The position numbers were made by a program, and so were the translations under genes. From assembly GCA_019914995.1 (NCBI GenBank), contig CM034126.1, positions 1,245,001 to 1,309,000 of the forward strand: a stretch of DNA of 64,000 nt, in the 5' to 3' direction. Positions within the stretch are counted from its first letter, which is position 1; each line of letters starts with the position of its first letter. The DNA is from Acanthochlamys bracteata. Lineage: Eukaryota; Streptophyta; Magnoliopsida; Pandanales; Velloziaceae. Of the stretch, positions 21,205-62,270 are shown in pieces. A model generated the notes under the pieces. That model had not been told where the DNA came from. It saw only the letters and a program-made list of their open reading frames with translations, and searched no databases.

Positions 21205-21451
21205 AACGGTTAGTTTGGAATTACTTATAAAATAAAATTTTTTAAAAATAGAATATATTTTTATTCATTTTAAAATATAAGTTTTTTTAATTCTAAAAAA
21301 ATAATAAAAATATACAATTAAAAAATTTTATTACCTCAAAGTTTTTTACACTATCTAAATTTTTAAATAAATTTTTTAAATACTTATAAAATATATTTTA
21401 AAAAATATGAAATAAAAAAAATTAAAAAGTGGCATTCCGAAAGCACTCTTA
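21205..21451. repeat. Family-A MITE-like element, well preserved
   Basis: About 247 bp with left end GGTTAGTTTGGAATTACTTA and right end GGCATTCCGAAAGCACTC. Its right interior shares a stretch of about 45 nearly identical bases with the copy at 29704-29950, beginning CACTATCTAAATTTTTAAAT, which shows that the two descend from one source element. Confidence 0.75.
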
Positions 21452-21885
21452 GTCATTCAAACTTTAAACCACCTGCAGATGGAAAACTTCATTTGTACAT
21501 TACTTTTCAAATCAAGAAGGCAACTGCAAATCCAAAATTCTAATAAATGAATAACATACTAGAAGTAACAACTGAACTCAAGGTGTTTCCATACATCGTT
21601 TCTGTAGTAGAATTCAATGATTAATCCTAAATCTTTGTTCTACCAAGACATTTCTTTTTGCTCTTGTGCTCATAATTTCATAGAGATGAAGGTTCTTCTG
21701 TGTTAAAATTTTTATCATTAAGTGGATCTTACTATTCTGTCAAGTTTTATGAAGCAAACATAGATGCTATTATTTTCTCTTCAGGATTATCTCCATATAT
21801 ACAAGAAAAGTGAGAAAACTCAAAAAAGAATCACATAAAATACAGAGATAGAAGGGCAAAGTAAGGCTGCTCACCTATAATGGTA

Positions 21886-22083
21886 AGCATTTCAACCAAA
21901 CCTTACATTAACTAAGATATTAAAATAAAATAAAACTTACAGTCATTACTAACTTTTAATACATCTACTAACTCTTTTAAGTAACATATATCCCTACTAT
22001 TAGCATTATTTATCTACTTTTTATCTTCAATGCTTTGAGAAACTCTAAAATGAATGCATATGTTTTAATTTGGTATTCCAACA
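21886..22083 (-). repeat. Copia terminal repeat, left (3' side of element)
   Basis: About 198 bp collinear with the left-oriented part of the right terminal repeat, sharing TTACATTAACTAAGA and GTTTTAATTTGGTATTCC and ending in the terminal CCAACA. It is shorter than its partner at 26161-26492. Confidence 0.85.
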
Positions 22084-22203
22084 CGTCTCCTCAAATCAAA
22101 ACGTTTTTATACCAAGCATTTTTCTTAGCCTTCCGAAATGTTCAATTGGCAACGACTTAGTAAAAATATCTGCTACTTGCTCCATAGTATAACAATATTC
22201 TAT

Positions 22204-22700
22204 CTACACAGTATTCTGCTTTATATGGTTTCTGAGAAAGTGGAATCGAGTATCGATGTGTTTGCTTCTTTTATAGTGTACTGGGTTCTTTACAAGTTGT
22301 ATAGCTGATTGATTATCAACAAATATTTTTATTGGTTTTTTTTGTGGATGATGCAGTTCTTTTAGCATATTTTTTAGCCAAATTATTTCACACACTATAA
22401 ATGCAGCTGCGACATATTCTGCTTCACATGAAGATAAAGCCACAATATTTTGCTTCTTTGATGTCCATAAAAATGCAGCTGATTCAAAATAAAAGATATA
22501 GCTTGTGGTATTTTTTTTTTCATCTTGGTCATCACCCCAATCACTATCTGAATAGTCCACTAATTCTACAGGTTCACCATAAATATAAAATTGACCAAAA
22601 TTAAGTGAGCCTTTGATATACCTTAAAATTCTCTTCGGAGCCAGCCAATGAGATTCTTTTGGTGTCTCCATGTAGCGACTTACAAGTCCGACTGTATAAA
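22204..22700 (-). mobile_element. RNase H region of the copia fossil
   Basis: Translation on the minus strand shows the copia RNase H signature words LSSCEAEYVAAA, FVDNQSAIQLVKNPV and KRSKHIDTRFHFLR. Fossil part of the element at 21886-26492. Confidence 0.85.
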
Positions 22701-23680
22701 TAATATCTGGCCTTGTGATTGTCAGGTACCTCAAACTACCAACAAGACTCTTCAAAAGAGTTGAGTCAACTAAATCTCCATTTCCTTCTTTTGATAGCTT
22801 TGTTCCTATGGCAATTGGAATGTTCACCGGATTACAATTACTCATCTTGAATTTCTCCAATATGTCCTTCGTGTACTTCTTTTGAGATATAAAGATCCCA
22901 TCTTGTTGTTGTTTCACTTCGATGCCAAGAAAGTAGGACATTAAACTATTATCCGTCATTTCGAATTTCTTAAACATCATCACCTTGAATTCTTCAAGCA
23001 TCTCAAGGCTATTGCCTGTGTACAACAAATCATCAACATAAAGATAAATTATCAGAAACTCGCCTTTATGATTCCTCTTCATATAGATGGCATGCTCATA
23101 AGGACATTTGGTGAAGCCATTTTGTTGAAGATAGCCATCAATAGGAGTATTCCACGCTCGTGGTGCTTACTTCAATCCGTACAAAGCTTTCTTTAATCGA
23201 TAAAATTTGTTTTGTTGCCCTTTCACCTGAAAACCTTCTGGCTGCTATACGTATACCTCTTCTTCAAGAATACCATTGAGAAATGCTGACTTGACATCTA
23301 GATGATATATCTTTCATCTATGATGAGCTGTAAGAGATATTATTAGTTCTACCGTATTAAGTCGAGCAACAGATGCAAAGACTTCTTCATAGTCGATGCC
23401 GTATTTTTGTTTGTAGCGTTTTGCTACAAGTCTAGCCTTGTACCGATCAACATCGCCATCAGCAGTGCGCTTAATTTTGTATACCCATTTGACACCTATT
23501 GTTTTGTGATTTTGTGGAAGTGTTGTCAACTCCCAGGTGTCATTCTTCTCTATAGCTTGGATCTCCTCCTCCATTACTAGTCGCCAACAGTTTTCTTTTA
23601 CAGCTTGTTGGAATGTGAGAGGTTCATGATCAGCATAGAAGATTAGACTAACCTTCTTCATTCGTCTGCTCATAGATCTC
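22700..23680 (-). mobile_element. Reverse transcriptase region of the copia fossil
   Basis: Minus-strand translation shows copia reverse-transcriptase words [20 protein letters not shown] and the catalytic YVDDLL box, followed by SQKKYTKDILEKFKM. Part of the broken element at 21886-26492. Confidence 0.88.
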
Positions 23681-23899
23681 CTTGAGACTTCTTATTTTGA
23701 TAGCGCTCCGTTGCGTAGATGATCCGTTACTACTACTTTTTTCAGAAGATGGAGAATCTCTAATAGGAAAGAGTGTAGTATGTTGAGGAGATAGTGGTGT
23801 TGTTAGTGGTGGTACCTCATGTGAGGGATCATCAGATTCATCCACCACTGGATGCTCTTTGGAAGTCTCTTCATTCCAGTTCCATGCGTCTTCTTTGCT

Positions 23900-25000
23900 A
23901 AACGAAACGTCTCTACTAATCATTAATTTCTTGGTTGGTGGATTGTAGAGCTTGTATGCTTTTGACTCATCGCTGTATCCGATGAAGATGCATTTTTCAC
24001 CACGATCATCATGCTTCTTCCTTTTGTCTTCAGTTACTTGGGTATAGACAATGCACCCAAAAATTCGTAAGTGTGCAATACTTGACTTGTATTCGCTCCA
24101 CGCCTCTTGAGGTGTTTTATTTTTCACCATCTTTGTGGGGCATCGATTAAGCAAATAAGCTGAGCATGCCACGGCTTCTGCCTAGAATTGCTTCGTTCTT
24201 TGAACATGGTTCTTATCATGTTGAGGATGGTTCTATTCTTTCTTTCTGCGATGCCATTTTGCTGTGGTGTGTAGGCAGTAGTCAACTATCTTTTTATACC
24301 TTGTTTCCTGCAATATTTTTGAAATATATTTGAGGTGTACTCACCACCTCTGTCAGATCGGAGAATTTTTATTTTGTGGCCACTTTCCGCTTCAACAAGA
24401 GCTCTAAAATACTTGAAAGTGATAAAGGCAGCAGACTTTTCTTTAAAAAAATATACCCACAACTTTCTACTGAAGTCATCAGCGAAGGTAATAAAATATT
24501 TGTTACCTCCCAAAGAGACTGGATCAAATGGCCCATAGATATCGGTATGAACAATTTGCAATGGTGCCTCTGCTCTCCATAATTTTCCATTAGGAAAAAG
24601 AAGTCGTGGTTGCTTGCCAATTACACATCCTTCGCATATATGATTTTGTGGTTCAATTATGGGTAAGCCTCGAACCATACTAGTCGTAGATAATAACTTC
24701 AAACCATTAAAGTTCAAATGGCCAAAACGAAGATGCCATCTCCTTGACTCATTCTGCACAAGTCCTTGAAAATATTTGTCAACTCTCATGTTTAGATGCA
24801 AAGGAAACATACGGTTGCTTGTCATCTTAACACAAGCTATAAGGCCTCCATTTGAATTTTTCAACCAAAGAAGGTTGTTTTCCATATGAACTTTGTATCC
24901 TTTTCCGAGTAATTGGCCGATGCTAAGAATATTACTTTTCATGTTAGAATTACAATAAACATTGGAAATATACTCGAACTTTATCATCCTTTTGATAGAT
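23900..25000 (-). mobile_element. Integrase region of the copia fossil
   Basis: Minus-strand translation shows the GAG-pre-integrase block (WHLRFGHLNFNGLKLL, CEGCVIGKQ) and core integrase words (VHTDIYGPF, FADDFSRKLWVYF, LRSDRGGEY). Further on is FGCIVYTQV typical of the copia integrase C-terminal region. Confidence 0.88.
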
Positions 25001-25523
25001 TTTGATCTTCCCTTTGCCTTCAATGGAAAGTTTTGAAGAATCTCCCAAGCTCACGCTTCCATGAATACCTTCTATGAGTTCCATAAAAAGTTCTCTCTTT
25101 CCACCCATGTGGTTACTAGCACCCCAATCCAAATACTATGCATCATTGTGAACACTTGAATCATCATTAGCAAGAAGAAGAGTAGAAGTATTACCCACAT
25201 CTTTTGTTGCTTCGACAAGATTGGTAAGATTTTTATTTTTGTACCAGTATTTCGAGACTTAATGTCCAAATTTATGACAGTTGTAAAATTGGACATTTTT
25301 ATTATTTCCACGGCCAGATGTGGATCTTCCTCAATTGTTTTGTCCCTGACCTCTAAAGTTTGAAACTTTCGTTTGATTTTGAGTGGTTTGTTATTGGGAT
25401 CCACGTCCCCTACCTTGACCACGACCACGACCTCTACTATTTGATCCTTGATCATTTAGAGTCAATTTCGACTCCAACGCTTGTTCCACAAATGTAGAAC
25501 TAGTCTTCTTTCACATCCGTTGT

Positions 25524-26159
25524 TCATGTACTTGAAGAGATCCTACGAGCTTTTCGATTGAAATCTCCTCCATATTTTTTCTCTTCAATTGCCGCCATCA
25601 CATGCTCGAACTTTGATGTGAGTGATCGGAGCAACTTCTCCATCACTTGGATGTCTTCAATATCTTCTCCATTTCTCCTCATTTTATTCACAATTAAAAT
25701 TAATCGTGAATAATAATCGGAGATTTTTTCTTCATCTTTCATTTGAGCGGCTTCAAACTCGCCCCTCAAAATTTGGAGACGAATTCGCTGCACCCTTTCA
25801 ACTCCCTTGTAGATAGTAGCAAGAATTTTCCATGCTTCCTTGCATGTAGTTGCTTCGGCAACTCTCTCGAAGGTAGACTCGTCTAACCCTTGATAGAGTA
25901 GAAAACGAGCCTTACTGTCCTTTCTTCTTTGCTCTCTAAGAATCTTCTTCTCTTCATTTGTATAGGCAGCTTCTTCCTCCGGTGTGGGTTCCTTAAACCC
26001 ATCACTAATAAGCTCCCACAAATTTTGAGAACTAAATAAAGCTCTTATTTGAATTGACCAACTGTCATAGTTATCTTTCGATAATTTTGGAACTTGAGAA
26101 TTTACAAGATTGTTGGTGGAAGCCATAAGAAATTTGGATCGACTTGGCTCTGGTACCAC
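25524..26159 (-). mobile_element. gag-like region of the copia fossil
   Basis: Minus-strand translation resembles the plant copia gag (UBN2-type) domain: PKLSKDNYDSWSIQIRALF, EAWKILATIYKG and MEKLLRSLTSKFEHVMAAIE. It lies directly after the primer-binding site and right terminal repeat. Confidence 0.85.
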
Positions 26160-26160
26160 T

Positions 26161-26492
26161 TGTTGGTTCTAAGTTTACGAACTTAGAACTTTTATGACTA
26201 GAAGAATTTGAAGCTATCTTTGGAGGAGAACTTTTCTTTAGAAGACTCTTTTTTCACTTGATGCAAAACAATATATTACAAGCCTTTTTATATAGGCATT
26301 ACAACCAAACCTTACATTAACTAAGACATTAAAATAAAATAAAACTTATAATTATTACTAACCTTTAACACACCCACTAACTCTTTTAAATAACATATAT
26401 CCCCACTAGTAGCATTACTTATCCATTTTTTTTCTTCAATGCTTTAAGAAACTCTAAAATAAATGCATACGTTTTAATTTGGTATTCCAACA
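26161..26492 (-). repeat. Copia terminal repeat, right (5' side of element)
   Basis: About 332 bp, beginning TGTTGG and ending CCAACA on the plus strand, the standard short inverted termini. The primer-binding site starts immediately to its left. Confidence 0.85.
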
Positions 26493-28317
26493 TGCCCTAC
26501 ATCTTTTGTAGCCTTATTAATACGATTAACAAGCTCCTCTCCACTTGCATAATCTCTCACTTTCCAAAGGCATTGCAATTTTGTCACTCATTATCCTCTA
26601 AGGAACAAAAGAATGAAATAATAAGGATTGAGAATGCTTGAAAATTTTTTTTTTAAAATAAAAAATATTTAACAAAAACGAGCTTAAAAATTTTTTATTT
26701 TAATTTTAAATAATAATTTTATAATATATATATATATTTTTACTTTCAAAATGTTAATAAAATTTTATAAAATATTATAAAAGTTTATTAAAAAGAAAAA
26801 CATTATTTAAAATGATAAGCATTTTAAAATCTCAAACAAACATCCGCTTAAAATTGCAAAAATAATAGTTTGCGTGGAATGGCTTCAGTGATAGCAGGCC
26901 CACCACATTTCCAAACTTGTGGACTTTGTTCATGGGCTGGATTCTCTAGCAAGTGGTTTTCACAAACTAATGAGTGGTGGAGATCATATCACAAACCAAG
27001 TCGTTTTCTTACTTCTCATATTTCGCTTTTTTTTTTTTTCAATTTTGCATGCTCCTATGTTTTGTTAGTTTTACAAGCACTGAATGTTTAATCTTCTATT
27101 ATTCCAACCTATCTAACTAAGGAGATAATAAGAACTCTTTTATAGAACACTTCCGCGCACTCTCGTTTACAAATGGCAAATGGGTTCTGTAGTTTAAAGC
27201 GTTATGGGCACATACGGGCAAGAATTTTTGGACCGAATATTTATTAGCGTCAGCATTAAACTTGATTAAAGATTTATTTTAATAACAAGAGAATTCGTAA
27301 GATTTTGAATTCGAATTTACTTTTTAAGTTTAAATTTATTCTAAACTCATCGACTTTTTATCGAACTCAACTCCAGAGAGCTGAATGAAACTCATTTTTT
27401 ACAGATTAAACACACCATACATTTATGAAATTGCCAATATTTTTTATATTCTCAGTGCATATTTCCATATTTTAGGACCGTAATCGTAAAAATATAAATA
27501 CATGAACTGATTATGCAATATATGTCTATATAGACTTTTTATATTTTGGATAAAGGAGTGCTTCATTTTATAAAATAAATTTCGTAAAATTATATTTCGC
27601 GTATGTGAAATTTCATAAAAATACAGTTCGATAAAAATAAAATTTTAAAATAATAATTGAAATACATAAAGTTTGAAATTATAAATTTAATATAAAAATA
27701 ATTATAGAGTTTTGAGTGATAACTATAACATATAAATTAACCAAACTCAAGAATTAGAAAAAGAAAGTGAATTTATTTATAATTAAAATATGCCCTAACA
27801 CAAGTCCATTGAAAATAAAATACATTGGCTGTTTATACAAACGGCTTACATTGTTTGCTGTATACTTAAATATTTCTCTCTGTAGTCAACTTTAAGTGAT
27901 TCTAGCTTTAAAGAAAAAAGCTTGATATGTGTATTCACAGTAACTTATAAGAAAGAGAAATTCAAAGCTTCTTAGGCTCTTTAAAAGAAGGTCTACTTAA
28001 ATTATGGGAGTCACATGGAATACAGAGCAGCTAGTAAAGCCAGCAAACAACAACATGGCTTCAGTAACCAAATCAAAATAATTTTTTGGTTGTCCAAAAA
28101 CTTTATGTTGATGAATTATTGGTAACCAAAATTGAGGCAAGGCAAAACATTCAACAAACTTGTTCTTAAACAAAAAAATCAAATCTGCAATAATTTTTTT
28201 TTCCGACAACGAAATTAATTTCTTCATAAAAAAAATTCCACATGTGTCCAAAAGGGATACATGCCATATGATACAAACATTACCCAAGTACGGATTTGTT
28301 TAGGTAGCAGTTTCAAT
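26493..28317. other. Intergenic DNA with one AT-rich repeat block
   Basis: No gene is seen. About 26625-26850 is an AT-rich, family-A-like block ending TCTCAAACAAACATCCGC. 26865-27100 is GC-richer with an unconvincing open frame. The rest is AT-rich and unremarkable. Confidence 0.45.
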
Positions 28318-28389
28318 ATAGGCTCTATTTGAAAGTGCCGAAATTTTTATGCTTTTGAAATAAAGCTGTTTTATAGTGCTGTAAGCAGC

Positions 28390-29310
28390 TGTAGAGCTTT
28401 TGCTATAAAAATATCTTTATGCTGAAAAATATTTGGATAAATTTTTACTGTATCATGTTTTTTAATGTTAAAAGCTGAATGAAATGTTTGGCTAAGCTTA
28501 TATTTATTTCTGTATAAGATATATAATGATTGAAATGTCTCACAGTAATTAATATATTATAAAATTTTTAATTCTTTTTGATATATTATTTTTTTAATTT
28601 AATAATTTTATTATGTAAAAATTATATAAATAATTACTTATATCAATATTTATAAATTTATTAACAAATTATATTATTGATATCAATCAATAACTAATTT
28701 GAATAATATTGATTATATAATAATTATTATAATATTAAATTTAGAAAGTATATTTAAATAATTATTAAAAGTATTTTATATTATTTTGTAAATTTAGTAT
28801 TATTACGATAAATTAGTAAATAATTTTGATATGTATTTAAATTTGTATAAATTATAAATTTATTTTTATAGTGTAAAAATATTAAATAAATATTGAACAA
28901 TTAATAGAGTCAATTGTTAACAATATAGTCAATTATTAATAATATTATCAATATCAAATAATATTTAACAAATAAGTATTTAATAAATAGTAAACAAATA
29001 ATATAGTCAATTATTAATAATATTATTAATATCAAGCTTTAATATCAAACAAGCATGTTGTAGTCTTAAACGGTAGCTGCGAAGATTTTGTTAAAAAAAT
29101 AACTTTCTAATGAAAAACAGTTCTTATATTAAAAAAATTTTGAATAAATTTTGACTATATTGTACTATTATTTTTGGCCGACGTATATAACGATCAAAAT
29201 ATTTTGAATATATAATAATAACATATTATCAAATTTTTACATCTTTTTAATAAATTATTTTATTTTTTGAACTTAGTAATGGTTATTACATATTACAGTT
29301 ATTAATATTT
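28390..29310. repeat. Two diverged direct copies of an AT-rich subterminal sequence
   Basis: About 28390-28640 and 29065-29300 are collinear and similar: each runs from a CTG-TAGAG/CTGCGAAG word through GATAAATTTTTACT/GAATAAATTTTGACT and ATAATGATTGAAATGT/ATAACGATCAAAATAT to a TTTTTGATATATTATTTT-type tract. Between them a shorter unit (TATAGTCAATTATTAATAAT) is repeated at about 28924 and 29001. Confidence 0.5.
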
Positions 29311-29703
29311 TTTTACAATAATGATTAAATTTAGTAGATTAAATTTATTATTATTGTAGTTTTTAACGATAAACTTTGCCAATCCATCATATCTTCTAAC
29401 TTAATTTCCTATTGAACTCCTAGAAAAGTTTTAGATATATTAAAAATTTTATAATATATTATTTACTTGTTTATATTTTAAGATATTATTTTACTACATA
29501 ATAAATTTACAAATATTTCTTTCAAAGATAATAGATTATTGTATTTCTTTTGTAGATTTCTGAAACAATCTCTTTTTGTTTGCAAAAACTAATAAGAAAT
29601 CTAATGGAAGACTTTCATTCTTTCTAAACATATTTGCTTAATCTCATTATACAAACGTAAAAGTTATTACAATAATAGTTGAGGTTTATTTGGGTACTAT
29701 AAG

Positions 29704-29950
29704 AATGCGTTTGGAATTGCTTATAAAATAAAGTTTTTTTAAAATAGAGAATATTTTTGTCTTTTTTGAAAAACGAACTTTATTTTTTGTACTTTCAAAA
29801 AAATAATAAAAAGATCTCATTATATAAAATTTTTCTACACTATCTAAATTTTTAAATAAATTTTTTAAATACTTATAAAATATGTATTGAAAAATATAAA
29901 ATGAGGAAAATTGAAAAATGGCTTTTGGTATGCACTACCAAACGCACCCT
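29704..29950. repeat. Family-A MITE-like element nested in the candidate Pack element
   Basis: About 247 bp with the clearest termini of the family: left AATGCGTTTGGAATTGCTTA and right TGCACTACCAAACGCACCCT. Very similar inside to the copy at 21205-21451. Confidence 0.75.
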
Positions 29951-30039
29951 AAAGACGCTTTGCTAAAATAGTTAAGAGGTCTATTTCTGCCAGTTTTCCT
30001 CATTATAAATAGCCTTCCATCAATATTCAAACTTACAAG

Positions 30040-30181
30040 ATTCTCCGTCTGATTTTCATTAGCAGTAGCTTCAAATGTCTCTCCAGGCACAAGCATTGGG
30101 ACATCGTCATCATTCTCAGCCTGGACAGTGACATCACCTGCTGATGCCTGCTTCTGGAACTGTTCTGCAAGACCCTTTCCT
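30040..30181 (-). pseudogene. Fragment of NAC-beta / BTF3 (C-terminal exon)
   Basis: The minus-strand translation KGLAEQFQKQASAGDVTVQ followed by AENDDDVPMLVPGETFEAT closely resembles the C-terminus of plant nascent polypeptide-associated complex subunit beta (BTF3), which binds ribosomes at the tunnel exit. Only this acidic tail is present; the conserved NAC domain is absent, so it cannot encode a working NAC-beta. It is joined directly to the oxidoreductase fragment on its right, in one apparent exon. Confidence 0.75.
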
Positions 30182-30474
30182 TTAGTTTATTTGTTTACAA
30201 GAGTAATAAAATCTTCAGTTTGTAAGCTTTAGCCTGGGCAGTGGCACCATCTGGACTAAGATGCTTGCAGGTAATCGGATTTTCTTCACTTTCTATTAAT
30301 AAATATCTTAACATTCATGAATAGGACATAACAGTCTAAAGTGTTGATATACAAATTCAATATCATTATCAATTTATCATACCTGCTGTATTGAACACTT
30401 CTACTCCAAGATGTTTAGCAAATAGCAATCAGGATAGCAATTATGCCAGTGCCACTAGAACCTCCATAAACCAT
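30182..30474 (-). pseudogene. Fragment of PIG3-like quinone oxidoreductase
   Basis: Two exon pieces on the minus strand, about 30474-30383 and 30292-30200, separated by a short intron with GT at its start. They translate in pieces to MVYGGSSGTG, AKHLGVEVFNTA, SEENPITCKHLSPDGA and TEDFITLV. These parallel the Rossmann-fold part of PIG3-type NADPH:quinone oxidoreductases (HGGSSGIGT, AKHLGVKVFVTAG, SEEKLAACKDLGAD, YKTEDFV, from memory). Frames shift between pieces and a stop is present, so it is a pseudogene fragment. Intron retention shows it came from genomic DNA rather than mRNA. Confidence 0.65.
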
Positions 30475-30481
30475 ATGTCAA

Positions 30482-31937
30482 CTTAAAAAATAACTTCACT
30501 TTTTCACGAGTTACGCCAAACTAGTAGGCTTAATTATTTTTTCTATAAGTATATTGTTTTGCTAATACAACTATACAAGTGAATCCTTAGACAAAACAAA
30601 TATTTCAAAAACATCTATTCTTTCATTACCATCAATACAAACATCAACAAATTTTCTGATGATAGAGACAAGTTTTCACATAAGCAAGGTCGCAAATCAA
30701 GGATCCTTCTGACAGTAACACAGTAAAGCAAGTGTATTTAATTAAAAAGCTAGAGAATTTAACAAAAACACAAAGTACAACTCAAGTTATTATTTAGGCA
30801 AAACTTGCTTATATGAGCACTTGGTTCTAGTTAAGTTTGACATAAATCTAATTATGTTTTATCAAAGGACAATAGCACTCAATTCTCAACCGCACAAATT
30901 AACTTGCAGATACATATGTGTGAAAAATGCTTGTTGCACACGCAAATGATAAAGCATTTAAAGATGCTCAGACAAGATCATGGTCTTAAAACCTAGATAG
31001 AATAGCCATATCCAAAACTTACAAGGACCAGAGGCAGAACCATCATACATAAGCACTGAGGCAGAAACATCATGAACTGCCAATTGGGTCAAACCTCTAA
31101 AATCCAGCATGACTCAGATGATAGGCACTTTCTGGCATTATAGAACAGTAGTTAAATACATCAAAATGTCAAAATAAAGACAAGCAAGCTTATATAGAGA
31201 AAGATTTGAGGAAACAATCAAACCATATACTAAGTAATTATTATTAACGCGAAGCAAGTGCTACGAAACTAAACGTGACAAAATGGTGATAAAAAATTCT
31301 TCTTCAAACAAATAAACATAACAATAGTACAACATGGAGAAAAACTTATCTTTTATATGCCGCATTGAACAAGATGGGAATCTATTAAAAAATAATTTAG
31401 TAGAAAAATATGTAAGAAAAACTCTAACCCCATAAGGATAAAATCAAAATTCAATTATCATCTCCTTAACAAGTCAGAACAGCACGAAGTTGATCTAAAT
31501 TTCTTTAATGCTAAAACTCACTTTAAGCCAACGCTACATACTCTAATTTCCCACCATATGACAATAACGCCATTAACACCCTCTTCCGCAAAAGTAAAAC
31601 AAAAAGCCAGTGGACAAAAATCACAACAAAAACTGAGAAAAAATAAAAATCACTATGGTCAAAACAGATTATTAAGAGGTTAATATATGACTGAAAATGC
31701 CATAGTCAACCATAGAGATCAATCAGAAACACTAAAAATCAACTTAAATTAAAAAGAAGCAAACAAACAAACAGTAATAACACTACAAAAAAAACTATCC
31801 TGCCTAAAAAAAATCAGTCATAGACACCCCAAATCTACTCCTAACTAAATTCAGGAATACTTAATTGAAAAAGCAAAATTTATTAACATGATCCAAGCTA
31901 CAACTAGAGCTAAAAGCTACATGATTGAGATGCTTAC
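30482..31937. other. Interior of the candidate element, no further gene recognised
   Basis: If the leader exon at 31938 is spliced, this would be its intron. No coding similarity was recognised on either strand; composition is typical plant intron or intergenic DNA. Confidence 0.4.
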
Positions 31938-32305
31938 CCTGATTCGAAACCTCGGGTCATTTCTTTGCGCTGACAGAATTATAAATCAGTCCAAATCCAA
32001 TTGATTTTCCACCACGAAAATGCATGCGAGAGATTAAGAGAAAATACGATGGGAAGAGCTGTAGTGAAAATCAAAGGCAACGACGAGATCGAAATAAAGG
32101 CCGGACGAAGAGGTCGAGATTAAGACCGGTGTCGGACACGAAGATGTTTGGCTGTCGGAGATGAAGATGGGTGTCGGAGATCAAGATCGGTGTGGAGATT
32201 CGAGATCGAGACCGAGAGAGATAGGGTTTGAGAGCAGAGTGGAGCCGCAGAGAAGAATGAAGAAAAGGAGATCGGGTAAAAGAGATCCGGTAAAATATTT
32301 TATAT
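31938..32305 (-). promoter_or_regulatory. TATA box and leader-like first exon inside the candidate element
   Basis: On the minus strand a TATATAAA box lies at about 32299-32306. It is followed by a pyrimidine-rich, GC-richer stretch typical of a plant 5' leader, ending at a good splice donor (GGTAAGC) after base 31938. Within it, GATCTCGA- and TCCGACAC-type words recur several times (32100-32220), a small imperfect internal repeat. The fragments of two host genes lie downstream on the same strand, so a chimeric spliced transcript is possible. Confidence 0.45.
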
Positions 32306-32531
32306 AGCATGATAAATTTACAAATTTATCGTGAGCAGAATCATCTTTTTGTAGAGGATGGAGAAAAGCAGCCGCGCTGCTTTTCTTTGAAAGCATTTAT
32401 CAGATACTTTTTAAAATTCACTGTTAAAAGCACCACAAAGCAGCTTACGGCTACATTATCCAAACATCTTAATTCCTGTTTTGTGCTTTTTTCGAACTTT
32501 AAGCTCAATAAAAGTACAGCCAAACAGAGCC

Positions 32532-35030
32532 ATAATCATGGAGAAACATAAAAGTGATAGCTGCTTTAACGACTTTATTATTAGTTAGACCAGATTCATA
32601 ACGCACAGCTTTAACATAACCTTCGAAAGAAGATGACTGCAAATTAAGAACACACCCTAAACAAGAAAGCTTAGAAATTACTCAATTAGATAAAAACATA
32701 GAAGTGCTTAAATTCATATAAATAATCATTCAGTTTGATAAAAAGTATACAAAATAATTTAATATTCTTCTCATGCGTAGGGTGTAAGATTGAATACAAT
32801 CTCTTTTATGAAGCTAATATCTACACTTGGCCTATTATGGCACGATATTAGATAGAATATAATTTTAAAAATTAGAATCAAAATGAATGGATGCAATAAT
32901 AAGTTATTTCTTGGAGTCACATTCAATAGTTGTTTAAGAAGAAATTGGTGTTGATGCAAGAATAAGTACATTCAAGAAGATTTTTTTTCTTTCCCTTAAC
33001 ATCTTTGATGATTAAATTATCCCCCATATAATGGAGGAATACCTCATTGTGGTCGGTCGTTCAAGTTTTACATTTAGGTATATAAAAGTTAATGTGAAAG
33101 TGAACTATTTAAAAAAATATATAGCTAACTCAAATAATTTAGGTGTAGACGTTAAATGATGAATCGTAAAATTGACTTATGAATGAAAAGGAAAAGGCTA
33201 GCATTTTTTCTCCGTGAACAGAGGAATACTTTAGTAATCTAATTATATATATATATATAATAGAGATGGACATATATATAAGGTCGGTTATTTTTGTATA
33301 AAATTTCAAATTTTGATTTTTATTGTTGGATATAAAAAAATATAAATTGAAAATATGTTGACAATATTTTAATTCAATCAGATCGCAAATCAATTTTCAT
33401 CCGACTTTTTAATTAAGATGATAAAAATAACACAATATATATTTTTTGATTTTTTTATTATGTAATCACACAAGAAGTTGGATGAAGATTGATTCAATGT
33501 TTGATGAAATAAATTTTGTCAGTATATTCTCAAATCATTTTTTTTATTCAACGGTATAAATTAAAGTTAAAATGTTGTACTAATATAATCGAACTGATGT
33601 GCGCGAACGTGTAAAAAATAATTTACCCTCCTATTTCCGAACCAGAGGTTCAAATATTTGTATATTGATCTAAATGCAGCACACGCATAAGAGACTTTTA
33701 ATTGTAAGTTAAAAACAAGTATATACGAGTGGATCTACTCTTCATTACACTAATTGTTTTTGGTGTATCTATGAAACTGTAGGTGATAATAAATACTTAA
33801 AATTGCAAGTGAAAGGGTGACCAAGTCCAAGTCAAGACACTGTAGACTTTGATGAGTTGGGAATTGCCATCAAAACCCAAAGTTGCAAGTCTTTGATTTA
33901 ATAGTTCTCTTCTAGAGATAGATGGAAATTGTGAAGACCAAATTATTGCAATGTTTTACGGAAAAGTTTAGAAATATTTATAAATAAATTTTTTAAAAAT
34001 ATTTTAGATACTTAAAAAATAATAATAAATTTTTACATATAAATTTTTTTATATTTAAAAAATTTACTAAAAAATCTGTAAGATAAACAAAAAAATTTGA
34101 AAAGCTCTCAAACGATCATCCAAATATGACAATATACATAATGCATACGAGTGCTTAAGAATTTTTAAAAGTTTAACTGACAAATAGATTAAAATGTTGA
34201 TGACATTAATTGACAACTACATAATATTAAAAAGTCATTATCTCTCCAATAAAGAAATTTAGTAAAGTAGGACCTTTAAGTCAAGAGAAAGTAGATGTTA
34301 AGAAGTTGCCTGGGAACAAAGGGCAAAGACTTTTTAAAGCACTCTTCTTTTTCTTTTTTCATTGTAGATCCTAAGTTGCTCTCCCTAATTAATTTTAATC
34401 ACTTGATGAATGCTTTATTCCACTTGATTTCCTTTTAGAAATTTTTTTTTTTTTTCATTTCACATGTCATTGCTTTGCTATTCATATACCACAAATTGCT
34501 GATATATAATAATTATTATATATTCTTCAGTTAGACAAATTAGTTTTCACGAGCAATCAATTATGTAAGAAACGAGTGAGCAGTCACTAGTGTGCAAATG
34601 TATTCCGGCAATGCTGGCATTGCAACCAAGCTCTAGATAGCTACTATTACATTTTCTGAAAATAATTTTTAATTTTTTAATTTACTTTTTTTAATAATTT
34701 TTTAAAATTAAAAATTTTACGTTATTTATTATTATTATTTTAGATAAAGTAGTATAACTCGTTTATAGAAATAGAATAAAAATATTTTTAGCTCTAAAAA
34801 AATACTTTTCAACGTCTATTCTATTATGTATTATAGTGATATTTGACTGTACTTATCGATATTTATTAAAATTTTATTTTATTTTTAATAAATACTTTTT
34901 AGAGTATTAAATTTTTTTAAAATTTAAAAATACAGATAAATTATATGACCACATAAAAACTTTTTATTTTAAAGAGTCTCAAATGATTTTTCCTATTTTT
35001 AACATTGCCCACTACATTCACGTCTCGGTC
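32532..35030. other. Intergenic DNA between candidate element and FLZ array
   Basis: No gene is seen. An AT microsatellite lies at about 33246-33259. About 33957-34130 is a decayed family-A-like block (from GAAAAGTTTAGAAATATTTA to GAAAAGCTCTCAAACGATC). Another AT-rich block is at about 34650-34990. Confidence 0.5.
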
Positions 35031-35048: not shown

Positions 35049-35141
35049 CTCCTCTTCTCTTCAACTTTAAAAGCCTCTCAATTCTTCATCAATCAATCGA
35101 GAGACTAACAAATAACATAAACAAGAAGAACTGAAAGATCG

Positions 35142-35559
35142 ATGGGCTCCAATGGATTGAGATTGTTCTACGTTAGCAACGCCGGCGACGAGAAGCCAAG
35201 CCATGACTTCTTAGACACTTGCAGCTTCTGCTATAAACGTCTCCGTCCTGATCGAGACATCTTCATGTACAGGTAAATATTGATCACCGATCAATCCTTG
35301 AATCTCTTGATCAGATGTAATGATCGTGTTAAATTAAATGTTTTGTGATTAATTTATCTGCAGAGGTGATACACCGTTCTGCAGCGAAGAGTGTAGGCAA
35401 GAACGGATCACCATGGACGAAACAGCAGCAGCAGCAGAGATCATGAAGGCACGGAAGCTGTCTAGAACTAGTGGTAGCGTTCCGTCTTCCTCCAGTAGTG
35501 TTAAGAATCAACAGAAGAAAAAGGAACGATTTAGAACCGGCGCTGTTATTGCCGGTTAG
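35142..35559 (+). CDS. FCS-like zinc finger protein, array member 1 (two exons)
   Basis: Plant FLZ (DUF581) protein, 108 residues. Family members bind SnRK1 kinase subunits through the FLZ domain and act as scaffolds or adaptors in energy and stress signalling. Exons 35142-35272 and 35364-35559. The phase-2 intron splits the domain just after FMY, the usual FLZ intron place. The zinc finger has both pairs of cysteines: CSFC and, after DIFMYRGDTPF, CSEEC, followed by RQERITMDE. A short N-terminus (MGSNGLRLFYVSNAGDEK) precedes it and a basic tail ending TGAVIAG follows. The tail resembles that of member 6 (TGAVVAG), grouping these two. Intact; start fixed by the only upstream in-frame ATG in good context (GATCGATGGG). 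Confidence 0.93.
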
Positions 35560-36820
35560 AAATAATAGAGGCTTTTGATCAGTTCATCACCAAAGCAAAA
35601 AGCTTTAGAGAAAATATATAGGAGAAATTAAAGTACATAGACAAGCTGCTGCTGCTGCTGCTGAGGTCTTGTTTTTTGTTCATCGGCATTGTATGACTCT
35701 TTGGTAAGCCGATTCTCTTGTTGAGGAGAGCAACAAACAAACAAAAAAAAAATGCTCACTGCCATTTTCTCTCTGCTATATGTATATCTAAAATTTTTTT
35801 AAAAATAACTAGAAGGTGATGAGCAGCAACTCATTGAAAAATTATGCTTACATTAGTAAATATTTAGGAATGCTTAAAACAAAATTTTTTCTTAAAGAAT
35901 TTATTTTAATTTTTTCAAAAAATTTTATTTTAATAAAAAATTAAAATTATTTATATTTTAATTTATTATGTATAATTTATTTATATGTGTTTTAGAATTT
36001 TATAAAATTATCTATAAAAAACTTATTAAAATATAAAAATTAAATAAATAATAATTAATTATAAGCGTTCGTTTCCTAAATATTGTCAGGACTAAAGAAG
36101 ACTATCAGGTCTACCATGACTAACATTGCTCTACAGGTTAATTTTTCAAATGTTTGATATTTGATATATATATTAACACCTAGAAAAAAAGCGACAATAT
36201 TTTTCTCCATTAACTTTTCTCAATAAGTTAGTAATAAATAAGAAAATAAACAACTAGCAATACCGATGGCAATGAATTATAAAAAAAAGTTTAGTTTATT
36301 TCTGCAAAATTATGTCATTATACATTATGAAACTTGGAAAATCCAAAGTTTGAAACAGTCAACTTAATTTTGAAGAAGCAGAGAACGCTATCTTGCATTA
36401 CCGTGGAGACTCAAAACAGAACAAACGATAAAGAATAAATAAACCCTTGTTGCGTGTTCATCTGATTGTTGTATCGTAAGCAGGTGATCAGATCACTTCC
36501 ATAAAAACAAAACAACGGATTTGAAATGAACAAATTGCATAGAAAAAGTACCATACTTTGGTGATTCCTTTTTATTTATTTAGGTAAAAAAAGAAAAAAA
36601 AGAGAAGAATATGAAATAATTGTTCCTGGTCCCCAATCAAGAGCCTTTATGTCATGGTCATGTAGCTATTTGGCAAGTGACAGCAACACCCATGACTCAT
36701 CACCACTGACCAGGTTCATTTCATTCAATTGAATCTCCTACCTGCTTGCCAATGTGCTTCCCCATAGTTCATGGTTTTGCTCCCAACTGTTCCCAGTCCC
36801 CCTGTTTGTTTATTTTCCAA
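35560..36820. other. Spacer between FLZ 1 and FLZ 2
   Basis: Contains the probable 3' untranslated region of member 1 (to about 35760, with a CTG run near 35650), a family-A-like AT-rich block (about 35868-36075, ending AAGCGTTCGTTTCCTAAA), and the upstream region of member 2. Confidence 0.5.
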
Positions 36821-36826
36821 TCTCCC

Positions 36827-36833
36827 TATATAT
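36827..36833 (+). promoter_or_regulatory. TATA-like box of FLZ locus 2
   Basis: TATATAT about 90 bases before the chosen ATG. It lies inside the longer upstream open frame, which argues that the frame before 36923 is not translated. Confidence 0.5.
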
Positions 36834-36922
36834 GTGTGACCCAATCTTCCATATCACAGTACTCAACCAAAACTCCAACTACCATCAACAAGAAAACAAT
36901 TATTCATTCAGCACTTCGAACA

Positions 36923-37288
36923 ATGGCTGCAAACAACAGCTGCTGCTCATCATCATCATCTTCTTCTTCTACAAATCCCAGAAACACTCTGCGTAGGAAG
37001 CCAACATTGAGACATATTCTTGTTTCAGAAACCTTAATCTTCATCGACCATGATGAAGTAGAGATGAAGCCTCCACATTTCTTGGACACGTGTGCTCGTT
37101 GTTTCAAGCAGCTGTTACCAGACTCAGATATATTCATGTATAGAGGAGATACTCCATTCTGTAGTGAAGAGTGCAGGCAAGAACAGATTGATTTAGACGA
37201 AGCCACGGAGAAGAGCAGGAAGATGTGCTTTGGGTCCGTGAAGAAGATGTGCTTTTCTGTCCGGCACGATGCTGTTGTCAGAGTGTGA
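36923..37288 (+). CDS. FCS-like zinc finger protein, array member 2 (intronless)
   Basis: 121 residues in one exon. N-terminus MAANNSCCSS with a serine run, then RRKPTLRHILVSETLIFIDH and the FLZ finger: CARC, then DIFMYRGDTPF, CSEEC and RQEQIDLDEATEKSRK. The frame is open back to 36746, but I start at 36923 because member 4 begins with the homologous MAAKSNSCCSS and the upstream part contains a TATA-like box. The family's usual intron after FMY is absent. Likely nuclear/cytosolic SnRK1-interacting adaptor by family. Confidence 0.92.
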   Translation: MAANNSCCSSSSSSSSTNPRNTLRRKPTLRHILVSETLIFIDHDEVEMKPPHFLDTCARCFKQLLPDSDIFMYRGDTPFCSEECRQEQIDLDEATEKSRKMCFGSVKKMCFSVRHDAVVRV

Positions 37289-38960
37289 ATATGGGATGGT
37301 GTTCACTTTCATATAGATCAAAAGATCCAGCGTGGAAATCAAGAAGAACTCAACTACCAATTAAAGCAATGGCAAAATAACCAATTGCCAGTTTTTGTAA
37401 CAAGTATTTTGATCCTTCAAAAGGGAAGAAAAGTTTCTGTAAATTGTTGTACTGGAATTTCATTTTGTTTTTGGCATGGAAATTCTAGTTCCCATAATGA
37501 AAATTTTCTAAATTTAGTTCAATTTGACATGGATGCCTTTGAATTGATGAATAATCATTAATGAATATAACCAATTAGCATTGCATCCCATTGAGCAGGA
37601 ATGCCTCAGTATAATGTCAAGAAAACAATATATACCATATGCATATAATAAAAAAACATTAAAACTTATCAAGATGCCAAGAGCGTATTTTTCTTGATAC
37701 AAACTCATTTTTATAAAATGAATTTATAAAAAAAGAGTTTAAAATTAAATGTGATTCGGATAAAAAATAAATTATTATGTTTATTTTTTAAGTGAGTTTT
37801 AGAATAAAATTTTAATTTTAAAAATTGAATTTTAAAAGTAAGTTTTTGACAGAAAAATGGTAGTTTAAAATTTGCGTTTGCTTTAGATTAAGAATGAATA
37901 AAAATTAAAGCTGTGTTCAGAAAAGTGAGTTTAAAGTATAGATAAATAAATTAAAGCCTGCACATAATATTGCTGCTCCCTCCATGCCTCCCAACCCCCC
38001 TTCAATCCTTCAACACAAGGAAAGAATACAACTACTCACACAAACTATAATCATGTCCTTATTTAAGTGGACCAATAAGCTCATTACACAATCTAGTAAA
38101 GAAAAAAAACTGAAGTTTTTGTACTACATGCACATGAACTCCACTCTTTCCCTGCTATCCTTTGCATATAAAGAAAGAAAGAACGCTGCAGATAAATAAT
38201 TGTTGTAGCTAATGAATCATGGTGATGCACGCACGGTCTGGCCATTGAAGCTAAAGCACATGTAGCTCATAGCACAAAGCATTCCGAAGTAGTTTGTTAA
38301 GATTCCTTCTAGCTTAAAACTTATGCTTTAGTGAAGTACTGCGATAAAACCGGAGGAAGGAAAATTCTAATTCAAGTTAATTAAACTGAGATCTATGTTA
38401 TTCTGTGAAATTTAAGATAAGGCAAGTAAGAATTAGTAAAATTAAGCATAATTAAACAATGGCGAGAATAAAGCAATAGAAAGTGTGTGGGTGTGTGTGT
38501 GAGAGAGAGAGAGAAAGATCGAGCGAGAGAGACCCTAAAAGGTTGACTACAGCGGGGACAGATGCGAGATCGACGGCGAACGGTATCCGACCACGGCACA
38601 GAGGACGAAGGAAAGCGTTAACTACTGATTTTAATTGGTTTTTGAGTAAAGAATTTATTTACCTACATTCCAAAGTTATGTTTTCAAATTTATTTTTAAA
38701 GTTTAATTCACTTTTAAATTAAAATATACATAATGTTTAAATTAATTTTTCTCACCAAAAAATTGTTTTAATATTTAAAATTTGAAACTAAAATATTTAT
38801 TTTCAAACTCATTTTTAATAAAAAAATAAATATAAAAATTTATCTTTTATCAAATTTAATTTTAATTTATATTTTATAAATATATTTTAAAAATAAATTT
38901 AATACAAAGTTAGCAACCATCGATCGCATACACAACAAGCTAGCAACCATCACCACGGCT
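37289..38960. other. Spacer between FLZ 2 and FLZ 3
   Basis: Holds the 3' region of member 2 (to about 37500), an AT-rich block at about 37690-37955 resembling one at 46400-46645, a stretch shared with the spacer before member 4 (about 38125-38270), a GT then GA microsatellite (about 38481-38516) followed by a GC-rich leader-like patch to 38620, and another AT-rich block (38640-38900). Confidence 0.5.
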
Positions 38961-38969
38961 ACCTGCTTA

Positions 38970-39318
38970 ACTTCTTCTTCTTCTTTCTTCTACAAACACT
39001 ATTTCTGCGTAGAAAACTAAGACTGATGAACTAGAAATGAAGCCTCCACACTTCTTGGACTCATCTGCACTATGTTTCAAACGGCTAGTACCAGACTCGG
39101 ATATCTTCATGTACAGAGGAGATACGCCGTTTTGTAGTGAAGAGTGCAGGCAAGAACAGATTGATATAGACGAAGCAATGGAGAAGAGAGGGAAGATATC
39201 TTTAGCTTCCATGAAGAATAAGAACAACAAGAAGTCTTCTTTGTTACTGAAGAGCCGTGTTGCTGTCGCTGGGCTTGATGGTTTTGTCCGACATGATCAC
39301 GCTGCTGTCAGTGTATGA
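38970..39318 (+). pseudogene. FCS-like zinc finger, array member 3, degenerate
   Basis: The C-terminal two-thirds is open from ATG 39037 (93 codons) and very like members 2 and 4: EMKPPHFLDSSALCFKR, DIFMYRGDTPF, CSEECRQEQIDIDEAMEK. Upstream, 38970-39036 still resembles their N-terminal coding sequence (TTCTTCTACAAACAC, CTGCGTAGAAAACTAAGACT), but the VSETxIFIDH segment is missing and the frame is interrupted. The first zinc ligand Cys is Ser (DSSALC rather than DSCALC), so the CxxC pair is broken. The tail differs from its relatives (MKNKNNKKSSLLLKS). It is either a pseudogene or a truncated protein without a complete zinc site. Confidence 0.8.
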
Positions 39319-41230
39319 AGTTACTGAACCATGGGATTCACAGGCAATGAAGAAAAATTCAAGAAGAATTCATCAGCTGATTAGGATAGATGGATGGAGA
39401 TGGGTGCAACGCACCAAGGCACAAGAATTTTCGAACACTTTTTTTCCTGCTGCAATTAAGTTGAGAGCAAACTGGGGACATACAAAGATGGGCTACCCAC
39501 CTCTTCTATACTTGGTCCTACTAAAAGGAAGAAAACAAAGTTTTGATTGTGAAAATTTTCATACGGCTGGAATTTTGTCTTAAATTTGGAAACTAATTAG
39601 TATTGAAAAATGCTTGCTTGTGTATCAAGGTCAATATTGTTCTTGATATGGTCTAATTAGGCATTGAATTCATTTGATTATTGTATCTACAGTCAAAAAT
39701 AGAGATAGCAATATATATCTCGATCCGCAATCAAATTCGACATTGAATTATTTATATAATTAAATAGGTTCAAGTTGATCCCAATTAATCTATATAATTC
39801 ATATAATTATAGTAACATTAGCTAATAATTAAAATTATTTAAATAATAATATTAAATATTAATTTAGCTTTTTTCTTAATTTATCTTATATTGGATAATA
39901 TTTTATTTAATTTATAAATTTTATTAAGATTAATCTTTTTGTCTTAAAAATAGAGTATATAATAATTTTTACTATTTATTTGTGGAAGTTAATTTTTGAC
40001 TATATAAATATATGAATCGAATTAAAATTAAACAATTTTGATCGAATTATCAAAATAAGTAGATTTGAATTTAAATTATTAATCCATATTATAACTCCTA
40101 ATGACGCATGCATTCACACCATAACCCATATCAATTTTCTCATATTATTGATATACGCTCTGATGCTAGCTTATACATTGCTGCATATGAACTCTGTTCC
40201 TATATCGGTAAAATTCATAAAAATTATGATGCAAGTACCGTTGCGGTTTCCTCATGTCACAAAATATCATCAGACCAACTTGGAATATGATTCCAAATAT
40301 AACAGTGTGTTTGCAAGTAACAATATCAATTAGAGACAAAGCAAAATTAAACCATCAGAATTTTCCTATATTATCAGAAGAGTGCCGAATAAATGGAAGC
40401 CAGCACCAAATATATATTTTGCCCCAGTTCTTCTCCACCTTAATTCTTGCCTCCCAACTCTTCATTCATCTTTCTAGTAAGTATACTGATTAATGTTTAT
40501 TAATATATTTAAGGTAAAAACTATTTGTTTTCAACAACCCATGCACATGAATCTTCCACTCTTTCCAAAACAAAAACAAAATAAAGCGATAAATGTTGTG
40601 TGTAACATAACTCGATTATCCTTGAAGTTGTAGTAGCTGGTGATCATGGCGATGCACCCATGGTACGTGCTGTTCTTCATTCGCATGGGAGATCCTTATA
40701 CAGTGAACGTGGCACAGAGCACAAGACCTCTCCTCTGTGTCAGCAATACAAAAAACAAACCGTTGCAGTGTTTATCTTCACATTCCACTTCCACTGCTGA
40801 AATCTCGCGAGTTAAAAATATTTAAAAAAGCAAACAAGAATTCAGAGGAAAGGAAAATTCTTAATTTACTTAACTTCTGTCGCTTCTGTCCAGTTTAGTT
40901 TTAATCGAGTGGAGTAGAACGAGTAGTCAGCAGAGCAGAAAAGGACAAAAGTAGATGACTAATTAAGCTTCCATCTGCGTCCCGACATATTGAATGGGTC
41001 CTGTTTTCTAGCAAAGCAAATAATTGTTAGTTGTTAAAGATGAAAACAAGGTGCGATCATGGGTTTGATTTGAATACCGTGACTTGATTCTGTCTCGTAT
41101 AATAGAAAATACCCGAAAGTACCAAGGGGTTGGTTTTCTTAATATTATTGTTCTGGTTTTGGGAATGACATCCTAGTTTAAGTTCAAGCCCCTAGTTTGT
41201 TTCTGTTTCCTCACTGTTTACTCAACTGTT
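39319..41230. other. Spacer between FLZ 3 and FLZ 4
   Basis: Contains AT-rich DNA at 39680-40090 and, at about 40530-40740, sequence collinear with about 38125-38270 upstream of member 3 (ATGCACATGAA...CCACTCTTTCC, then GATCATGGCGATGCACCCA versus AATCATGGTGATGCACGCA). Short open frames here have no domain support. Confidence 0.5.
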
Positions 41231-41258
41231 TATAAAACCAGTCTCTCCAACTACTTCC

Positions 41259-41266
41259 TATATAAA
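41259..41266 (+). promoter_or_regulatory. TATA box of FLZ locus 4
   Basis: TATATAAAA-type box about 72 bases before the ATG; a second TATAAAA lies at 41231. Either could serve; the nearer one would give a leader of about 40 bases. Confidence 0.55.
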
Positions 41267-41331
41267 ACAGCATCTCTACCACGATCTCAAAGCACAAGCT
41301 AGCCAAAGGAGGAAGAAACCAAGATCAATTC

Positions 41332-41742
41332 ATGGCCGCAAAAAGCAACAGCTGTTGCTCATCGTCATCTTCTTCTCCAACAACGAAACCTATGAATACT
41401 CTACGAAGAAAACCAACACTGAGATCTTTCCCGGTTTCAGAAACCATAATCTTCATAGACCATGATGAACCAGAGATGAAGCCTCCCCATTTCTTGGATT
41501 CTTGTGCTCTCTGTTTCAAGCAGCTATTACCAGACTCGGATATCTTCATGTACAAAGGAAACATGCCGTTTTGTAGTGAAGAGTGCAGGCAAGAACAGAT
41601 TGATTTAGATGAAGCCATGGAAAGGAGCAGAAAGATATCCAAGATGAACAAGTCTAGTAATATTCAAACTATCGGCGGAAATTGCCCGGGAACTGCTGCT
41701 AATTCTGTTCATGTTCGCGTAAACGCTGCTCTTATAGTGTGA
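41332..41742 (+). CDS. FCS-like zinc finger protein, array member 4 (intronless)
   Basis: 136 residues, one exon. N-terminus MAAKSNSCCSSSSSSPTTKP, then NTLRRKPTLRSFPVSETIIF and the FLZ finger: CALC, DIFMYKGNMPF, CSEEC, RQEQIDLDEAMERSRK. All four cysteines are kept, but the otherwise constant YRGDTPF is YKGNMPF. The tail (SSNIQTIGGNCPGTAANS) is unlike members 2 and 3. The usual FLZ intron is absent. Closest relative in the window is member 2. By family, a SnRK1-binding adaptor. Confidence 0.92.
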   Translation: MAAKSNSCCSSSSSSPTTKPMNTLRRKPTLRSFPVSETIIFIDHDEPEMKPPHFLDSCALCFKQLLPDSDIFMYKGNMPFCSEECRQEQIDLDEAMERSRKISKMNKSSNIQTIGGNCPGTAANSVHVRVNAALIV

Positions 41743-44322: not shown

Positions 44323-44534
44323 GTAGCGTTTATAATATATTTTTAAAAATAGTTTTATTTTACTTTAATAAATAAATTATATTATTTTGATGTAAAAAAT
44401 AATAAAAAAATTTTATTACGTAAATTTTTTTACATTTAAAAAAATTTCATATAAATTTTATTAGAAAATTATTACAAAATATAAAATAAAAATTATTAAA
44501 GTTTTTTTATAGAATCAAATGCCAAACCATTCCT
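44323..44534. repeat. Family-A MITE-like element
   Basis: About 212 bp. Left end AAGGTAGCGTTTATAATA, right end AAATGCCAAACCATTCCT, AT-rich interior with TTACGTAAATTTTTTTACAT, a word also seen in the copy at 51049. Confidence 0.55.
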
Positions 44535-44576
44535 AATTAGTCAACGAGAATAATCTTCTTCTTCTTACATTAATAA

Positions 44577-44755
44577 GGTCCGATTTGGCATTGCTTACGG
44601 GATAAATAATTTTTAATTTTTCAATTTATATTTGTTAATATATATTTTGCAAGTATATAAAAAATTTATTTAAAAATTTAAAAAATATAGAAAAATTTAT
44701 AAATATTTTTTATTTTAAAAAAAAATTATTTTATAAGTAATTCTAAACGCACCCT
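44577..44755. repeat. Family-A MITE-like element, inverted
   Basis: About 179 bp, left end GGTCCGATTTGGCATTGCTTA, right end TAAGTAATTCTAAACGCACCC. The right end matches the reverse complement of the left end of other copies (GCGTTTGGAATTGCTTATAA), so this copy lies in the opposite orientation. Confidence 0.6.
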
Positions 44756-45006
44756 AATTTGTGTTTTAGTGTTACCATTTCAATTAAGTTCCTTCTCTCT
44801 CTAATAAGCTCCCTTCAATTGTCTACTAGTCCCACAAGCAACACCAACATTCACCAAAATCCCCCATTTTCTGCAGCAATCTAATCAAACTTCTACACTC
44901 AATCATTTACTAATGATTGCATCATAACTTCCTTCTCTTCTTCTTCTTCTTCTTCTTGTTTCATCCGAGAGGAAAGAGCGAGATACATCAATAGAGAGAT
45001 AAACAA

Positions 45007-47935: not shown

Positions 47936-48149
47936 GGGCGTTGGTAGTGCTTATAAAATTAAAATTTTTTAAAATAAAAAATAATTTTATTTTTTTTAAA
48001 AAATAAGCTATATTTTTTTAATTCAATATAAATAATAAAAATATATAATAAAAAAATTTTATTAATTTTTTTTAAATACTTATAAAATATATATTAAAAA
48101 ATAAAAAATAAAAAATTTATTTTTTTTTATAAGCAAAACTAAACAGCCC
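47936..48149. repeat. Family-A MITE-like element
   Basis: About 214 bp, left end GGGCGTTGGTAGTGCTTATA, right end AAGCAAAACTAAACAGCCCG, AT-rich interior with TATAAAATATATATTAAAAA. Good match to the copies at 9902 and 29704. Confidence 0.65.

Positions 48150-59587: not shown

Positions 59588-62270
<2,683 letters not shown>

Follow-up and report, generated by a model that had tools for sequence, protein, structure and literature searches.

A decayed PIG3 gene piece with a foreign patch inside one exon, in a putative Pack-type transposon of Acanthochlamys bracteata

A 64-kb stretch of DNA from Acanthochlamys bracteata (assembly GCA_019914995.1, contig CM034126.1, positions 1,245,001 to 1,309,000; hereafter the window, in whose coordinates all positions are given) carries on its minus strand part of the genomic sequence of a PIG3-family quinone oxidoreductase gene, now decayed, in which a section of one exon has been replaced by a coding segment that we take to be of NAC-beta origin. 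The piece lies between two 11-bp inverted ends, and we think it somewhat probable that the 4.2 kb from 28321 to 32531 represent an old, immobile, non-autonomous Pack-type terminal inverted repeat (TIR) transposon that gained the PIG3 gene piece and one or more NAC-beta patches by template switching, and that was subsequently altered by decay and by the insertion of a miniature inverted-repeat transposable element (MITE). Our analysis drew on the 64-kb window and on prokaryote, viral, plasmid, PDB and profile libraries.

A decayed PIG3-family gene piece

The gene piece and its interruptions, in the reading direction of the minus strand, are as follows.

30383..30471 (-): PIG3 part A, first exon, VYGGSSGTGIIAILIA, frameshift, KHLGVEVFNTA (exon reading, profile match)
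30293..30382 (-): retained 90-nt GT-AG intron, as deduced from how the exons on either side read
30254..30292 (-): PIG3 part A, start of the second exon, SEENPITCKHLS (profile match)
30231..30253 (-): short stretch resembling the NAC-beta-like tail (19 of 23 positions, no gaps, 4 transitions)
30172..30219 (-): PIG3 part B, TEDFITLVNK*TKGKG, one stop (profile match in context)
30049..30171 (-): NAC-beta/BTF3-like tail, 41 codons (reading; putative family)
29953..30048 (-): PIG3 part C, NLVSLNIDGRLFI, frameshift, then AEIDLLTILAKRL (profile match in context)
29703..29949: 247-bp Tourist-like MITE, ends GRRTGCGTTTGG, TAA on both sides (alignment)

The initial annotation had recognized a PIG3-like oxidoreductase fragment here, and part A did match the PIG3-family profile TIGR02824 (26.7 bits, 2.5e-6). 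The score was 39.9 bits for parts A and B and 42.2 bits when the first half of part C was included, and all three parts, with the patch masked and the frameshift read across, reached 49.9 bits in a colinear match to profile positions 145-257 of 325; the cut-off for full-length proteins, 296.8, is much higher, which is to be expected for a fragment. In controls where B and C were shuffled by hand the scores were 24.2, 27.9 and 24.6 bits (n = 3), and where C alone was shuffled they were 38.8, 38.8 and 38.9 bits (n = 3). The PIG3 fragments exceed chance, and PIG3 identity extends to both sides of the patch. Weak agreement, below the cut-off, was also obtained with Pfam ADH_zinc_N (0.0051 for A; 0.00028 for A, B and C together).

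Some results of the profile work pull the other way: when B was left out, joining C to part A brought no gain (24.0 and 24.1 bits), no family was matched by B and C once A was removed, and the PDB matches of part A were weak, the best being to a polyketide synthase (0.008), with a quinone oxidoreductase at 0.028. Because of the first two of these results, parts B and C are recognized in context only.

A tblastn search of plasmids with the patch-masked read matched 211 records, and in 132 of these the match covered 80% or more of the read length, with a best identity of 38.3% among the matches listed. In an alignment of the read with five of the best 20 of these 211 records, the tail stands where bacterial PIG3 reads VDVILDMVGG.YFE. 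When bacterial genomes were searched with the decayed read, 116 pattern stretches came up but no relative was confirmed, and TIGR02824 had 0 matches in the one viral record searched.

The intron that had been noted in the oxidoreductase part was recovered at 30382-30293, and its retention argues for copying at the DNA level. The piece is interrupted by frameshifts within part A, between the 30253-30231 stretch and part B, and in part C, and by a TAA stop codon at 30189-30187 in part B. As judged from its sequence, the chimera cannot now encode either PIG3 or a fusion protein; as a gene this copy is dead, and a role of its own is therefore unlikely. The recognizable PIG3 part ends directly at the MITE (29703-29949), which appears to have arrived later and to have cut it.

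A foreign patch within a PIG3 exon

The tail, 123 nt long, lies inside the second PIG3 exon, where it takes the place of about 15 PIG3 codons, is in phase with part B before it and with part C behind it, and is followed by the resumption of PIG3. The arrangement differs from the one first described, namely an oxidoreductase followed by a NAC-beta tail with the fusion at 30181: the first junction between PIG3 and tail is at about 30172/30171, PIG3 flanks the tail on both sides, and the structure is a replacement within an exon, not an end-to-end join. Template switching in gap repair would be expected to leave such an outcome, in which a foreign segment takes the place of part of an exon and the interrupted gene continues beyond it.

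The reading LAEQFQKQASAGDVTVQAENDDDVPMLVPGETFEATANENQ, on which the NAC-beta assignment had been based, is present in the tail piece. The family name is putative and was confirmed by no library, with no relevant match in NCBIfam, PDB or Pfam; like the initial annotation, we take the reading of 30171-30049 to be a plant NAC-beta/BTF3 tail. A text search of the literature for motifs typical of such tails found nothing, and a longer DNA pattern from the tail had 0 matches in viral contigs. A shorter pattern, for the word LAEQFQKQ, occurred in 31 prokaryote and 3 viral stretches; when these 34 were compared with the tail the best E was 0.098, and in none does the likeness to the tail extend past the searched word.

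The 23-nt stretch at 30253-30231 hints that template switching was repeated. Its score against the tail was reached by 1 of 2000 shuffles and by 0 of 1062 other window segments, figures that are optimistic, its borders having been picked after the match was seen. Its entry border preserves the reading phase, whereas its exit border is out by one base. Three of the four patch borders keep the reading phase (by our arithmetic, the chance of at least three of four is about 0.11), and on this ground the chimera may once have been translated. With considerable doubt, we suggest that the two NAC-beta patches (123 and 23 nt) with PIG3 between them could be the trace of a copying strand that changed template repeatedly, between two genes that are not linked, during one repair event in a plant transposon, and of a chimera that was perhaps translated at one time.

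Ends, flanks and inner arms

The features that would delimit the element, together with a repeat in its left part, are listed below.

28318..28320: candidate left target-site duplication, ATA (flank comparison)
28321..28331 (+): putative left 11-bp TIR, GGCTCTATTTG (exact word match)
28321..28520 (+): left inner arm, rich in AGC/GCT with 17 occurrences in 200 bp (trinucleotide count)
29025..29384 (+): AT-rich diverged direct repeat of 28343-28705 (alignment score 196)
32332..32531 (-): right inner arm, rich in AGC/GCT with 16 occurrences in 200 bp (trinucleotide count)
32521..32531 (-): putative right 11-bp TIR, GGCTCTGTTTG (exact word match)
32532..32534: candidate right target-site duplication, ATA (flank comparison)

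Both of the inverted ends GGCTCTRTTTG reported at the outset were found, and they are the only exact matches to this word in the window, where 19 matches are present if up to 2 mismatches are allowed. The trinucleotide ATA stands directly outside each end, and among flank repeat lengths of 2 to 11 bp full agreement was seen at 3 bp only. That both 11-bp ends bound one element is likely, and we favor a single element because of its AGC-rich inner arms and because the ends lack the partners that separate MITEs would have.

Across the window, AGC/GCT occurs 4.4 times per 200 bp on average (sd 3.0, maximum 18), and the counts of the left and right arms are reached by 0.13% and 0.28% of windows, respectively; the 200 bp outside the element hold 1 on the left and 8 on the right. 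When 486 inverted pairs with a spacing of 600 bp or more were ranked by composition over 32 trinucleotide classes, the AGC-rich end pair came third, the first-ranked pair being extreme on one side only, and among the 5 pairs with a 3-bp repeat it was the best, 57-fold ahead of the next. Caution is in order for these values, as the AGC richness was spotted by eye before testing and as the AGC count reaches 13 or more per 200 bp in 13 peaks of the window, of which two are at the arms.

The possibility that the ends belong to two separate MITEs, raised at the outset, is disfavored by our scan of the window, in which neither end had a nearby partner word with up to 2 mismatches. The only such word between the ends, at 31901-31911 (-), is in right-end orientation and 3.6 kb from the left end.

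Other observations count against a single transposon bounded by these ends. In a chance control, we counted inverted pairs of 11-mers that have 5 or more G/C, differ at no more than 1 position and lie 200-6000 bp apart, both in the window and in 20 dinucleotide shuffles; the window holds 561 such pairs versus 288 +/- 32 in the shuffles, and the pairs with a flanking 3-bp repeat number 5 versus 7.1 +/- 3.2 (3 to 15). The inverted ends with their 3-bp repeat are not rarer than chance when taken alone, and given these 5 pairs against a shuffle mean of 7.1 they are no evidence by themselves. Alignment of the arms with each other over 300 bp scored 73 versus 51 +/- 8, a value reached by 7 of 500 shuffles (by 3 of 500 when the TIR was left out), and at a stricter score the left and right 200-bp arms were matched at least as well by 167 and 62, respectively, of 2354 other window segments as by each other. 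The 8-mers common to both arms were no better than random, the single one with at least 3 G/C being reached by 21% of random pairs, and no second copy of either arm was detected in the window, where the best outside scores were 47 and 34 (AT-rich) versus 40 and 38 in shuffled sequence. The ATA on both sides departs from the TTA or TAA duplication of PIF/Harbinger elements. Finally, a 58-aa open frame at 32681-32505 (-), which is exon-like and has an acceptor-like TTTGCAG, crosses the duplication into the right TIR, and the right TIR word could thus be host sequence; if the frame is a real exon, either the element was inserted in an exon or the word belongs to the host.

This frame matched none of the family profiles and one irrelevant PDB chain (E 1), and seven other flanking readings gave one sub-threshold Pfam match (0.095). 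A literature text search for the word GGCTCTGTTTGG returned 3 papers, no title of which concerned transposons, and a viral-contig scan with the TIR pattern was discarded after yielding at least 120 unspecific stretches. No transposase match was found in 10 scanned open reading frames (ORFs) out of the 77 of at least 30 aa that overlap 28200-32700; one of the ten had two sub-threshold, unrelated matches (0.016 and 0.034). The original proposal of DNA-level capture within one TIR element is supported as regards copying with the intron and the presence of a foreign piece, whereas its single-element part is favored, with ends at chance level and arms whose likeness is unconvincing.

Proposed origin and alternative explanations

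In the sequence of events that we favor, a TIR element would have taken up a piece of a genomic PIG3-family gene together with its intron. While a break was being repaired, the strand under synthesis would have changed template at least one time, and perhaps a second, between PIG3 and a NAC-beta gene; the 123-nt patch in a single PIG3 exon, and perhaps the 23-nt patch as well, would be the result. The chimera would then have decayed, acquiring a stop codon and frameshifts, and the element would have received the insertion of a Tourist-like MITE.

The same structure might have arisen in a duplicated PIG3 pseudogene that was never carried by a transposon, with a break filled by foreign coding DNA and the 11-bp inverted words present by coincidence. 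We regard this as rather unlikely, yet it would be consistent with the equal frequency of word pairs with a 3-bp repeat in shuffled sequence, with the unconvincing arm homology and with the open frame passing through the right end; moreover, the MITE at 29703-29949, which is flanked by TAA repeats and has other copies within the 64 kb, exemplifies what a clear element looks like here. The AGC richness of the inner arms (17 and 16, versus 1 and 8 outside) is less easily accommodated, although 13 AGC peaks exist in the window, as is the lack of any other exact GGCTCTRTTTG in 64 kb.

The diverged duplication of its own arm in the left part of the element (28343-28705 and 29025-29384), whose score of 196 compares with 133 +/- 11 and a maximum of 169 in 200 shuffles, would fit instead a compound structure made from two related elements, each contributing one end, with the intervening DNA, including a PIG3 pseudogene, being enclosed and not captured. 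Enclosure between neighboring ends has been described for Pack-CACTA (PMC13317346) and Ac/Ds (PMC3260210), and such an origin would also suit the unlikeness of the arms and the degenerate right-end-oriented word with 2 mismatches at 31901-31911 (-). That no further internal end word exists within 2 mismatches, and that the 3-bp repeat is common to the outermost ends, speaks against it, and we consider it improbable. Still more remote, in our estimation, is transport of the gene scraps by a Helitron or a retroelement, with the TIR words being incidental. Helitrons are known to keep the introns of genes that they capture, whereas for a retroelement the presence of the intron argues against retroposition of an mRNA. 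In maize, Helitrons that carry captured host sequences are common (PMC13317346).

Comparison with known systems

If it is one element, the Pack-type transposon favored here would be a further member of a published kind, with the patch within an exon as its most unusual feature. The host gene fragments with introns that characterize Pack-type elements are represented by the PIG3 exons and the 90-nt intron. Among superfamily hallmarks, the 8-bp duplication of hAT elements is absent (3 of 8 positions agree), as is the 9- to 11-bp duplication of Mutator-like elements (MULEs; agreement at 4 of 9, 1 of 10 and 4 of 11 positions); the TIR word has 11 bp where MULEs usually have long TIRs; and the ends begin with GGCTC, unlike those of CACTA elements.

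Pack-TYPE elements have been reported in the MULE, CACTA, hAT, PIF and Mariner superfamilies, and TTA/TAA flanks 52.4% (rice) and 81.2% (maize) of annotated PIF elements, so that part of them departs from this duplication (PMC8903248). Like the Pack-PIF and other Pack-TYPE elements of maize and rice, the present structure would be a non-autonomous TIR element with host gene fragments, a short TIR and a 3-bp duplication, but it has ATA where the PIF elements of that study mostly have TTA/TAA, and the pipeline of that study discards singletons (PMC8903248). In most species of Oryza, two or more parents contributed to about 5-10% of the putative genes derived from MULEs (PMC4858842). The chimera resembles such MULE-derived chimeric genes and Pack-MULEs in uniting two unrelated parents in one reading, and differs in having no 9- to 11-bp duplication, an 11-bp TIR and the second parent located within an exon of the first (PMC4858842).

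Template switching during gap repair has been described for animal Pack-TIRs, which are formed by gap filling or FoSTeST, and proposed for Pack-MULEs (PMC8277862); repair template switching is the capture route proposed there, as it is here, whereas the Pack-TIRs of that study were described in animals. Capture through repair errors after excision was also suggested for Ac/Ds, and the maize elements Ds2 and Ds-l4 share with our candidate an 11-bp TIR and filler DNA from genes with introns kept, though not its lack of an 8-bp duplication (PMC3260210). In grapevine, a dicot, transduplication was reported across TIR superfamilies, with host exons and introns in PIF and hAT elements as in the present case; Pifvine-3 and Hatvine-6 hold transposase-coding sequence, in contrast to the absence of any detected in the 10 ORFs scanned here (PMC2528002).

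The capture of unlinked gene fragments by plant TIR elements is still debated, and according to a 2026 review there may be a mechanism yet to be discovered (PMC13317346). If our interpretation is true, the patch within the exon would keep the switch points, and the parent genes would let the repair model be read base by base.

Other features of the window

One further feature lies within the putative element; Rfam had nothing at gathering score in the interval 28000-33000, which includes it.

31938..32290 (-): GC-richer stretch, possibly 5'-leader-exon-like, with a possible donor GTAAGC at its end (deduced from its base sequence)

Six more stretches of the Tourist-like MITE family are present in the window, at 7243-7429, 9906-10142, 11513-11731, 21213-21447, 47938-48117 and 51053-51251, with scores of 129 to 209 versus at most 56 in shuffled segments. 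A Copia-like retroelement at 21884-26492 (-) has integrase and reverse transcriptase domains and two 200-bp stretches of long terminal repeat that are 90% identical.

The window carries plant-type genes, such as those for FCS-like zinc-finger (FLZ) proteins, five open frames of which stand in tandem at 35121-45396 (+), with PF04570 found in 5 of 5 ORFs scanned. Open frames for a XendoU-type endoribonuclease and a glycosyl hydrolase family 14 protein (beta-amylase) are located at 56458-57219 and 61386-62267 (+), respectively, and one for a RING-finger protein (PF13920) at 12674-13246 (-).

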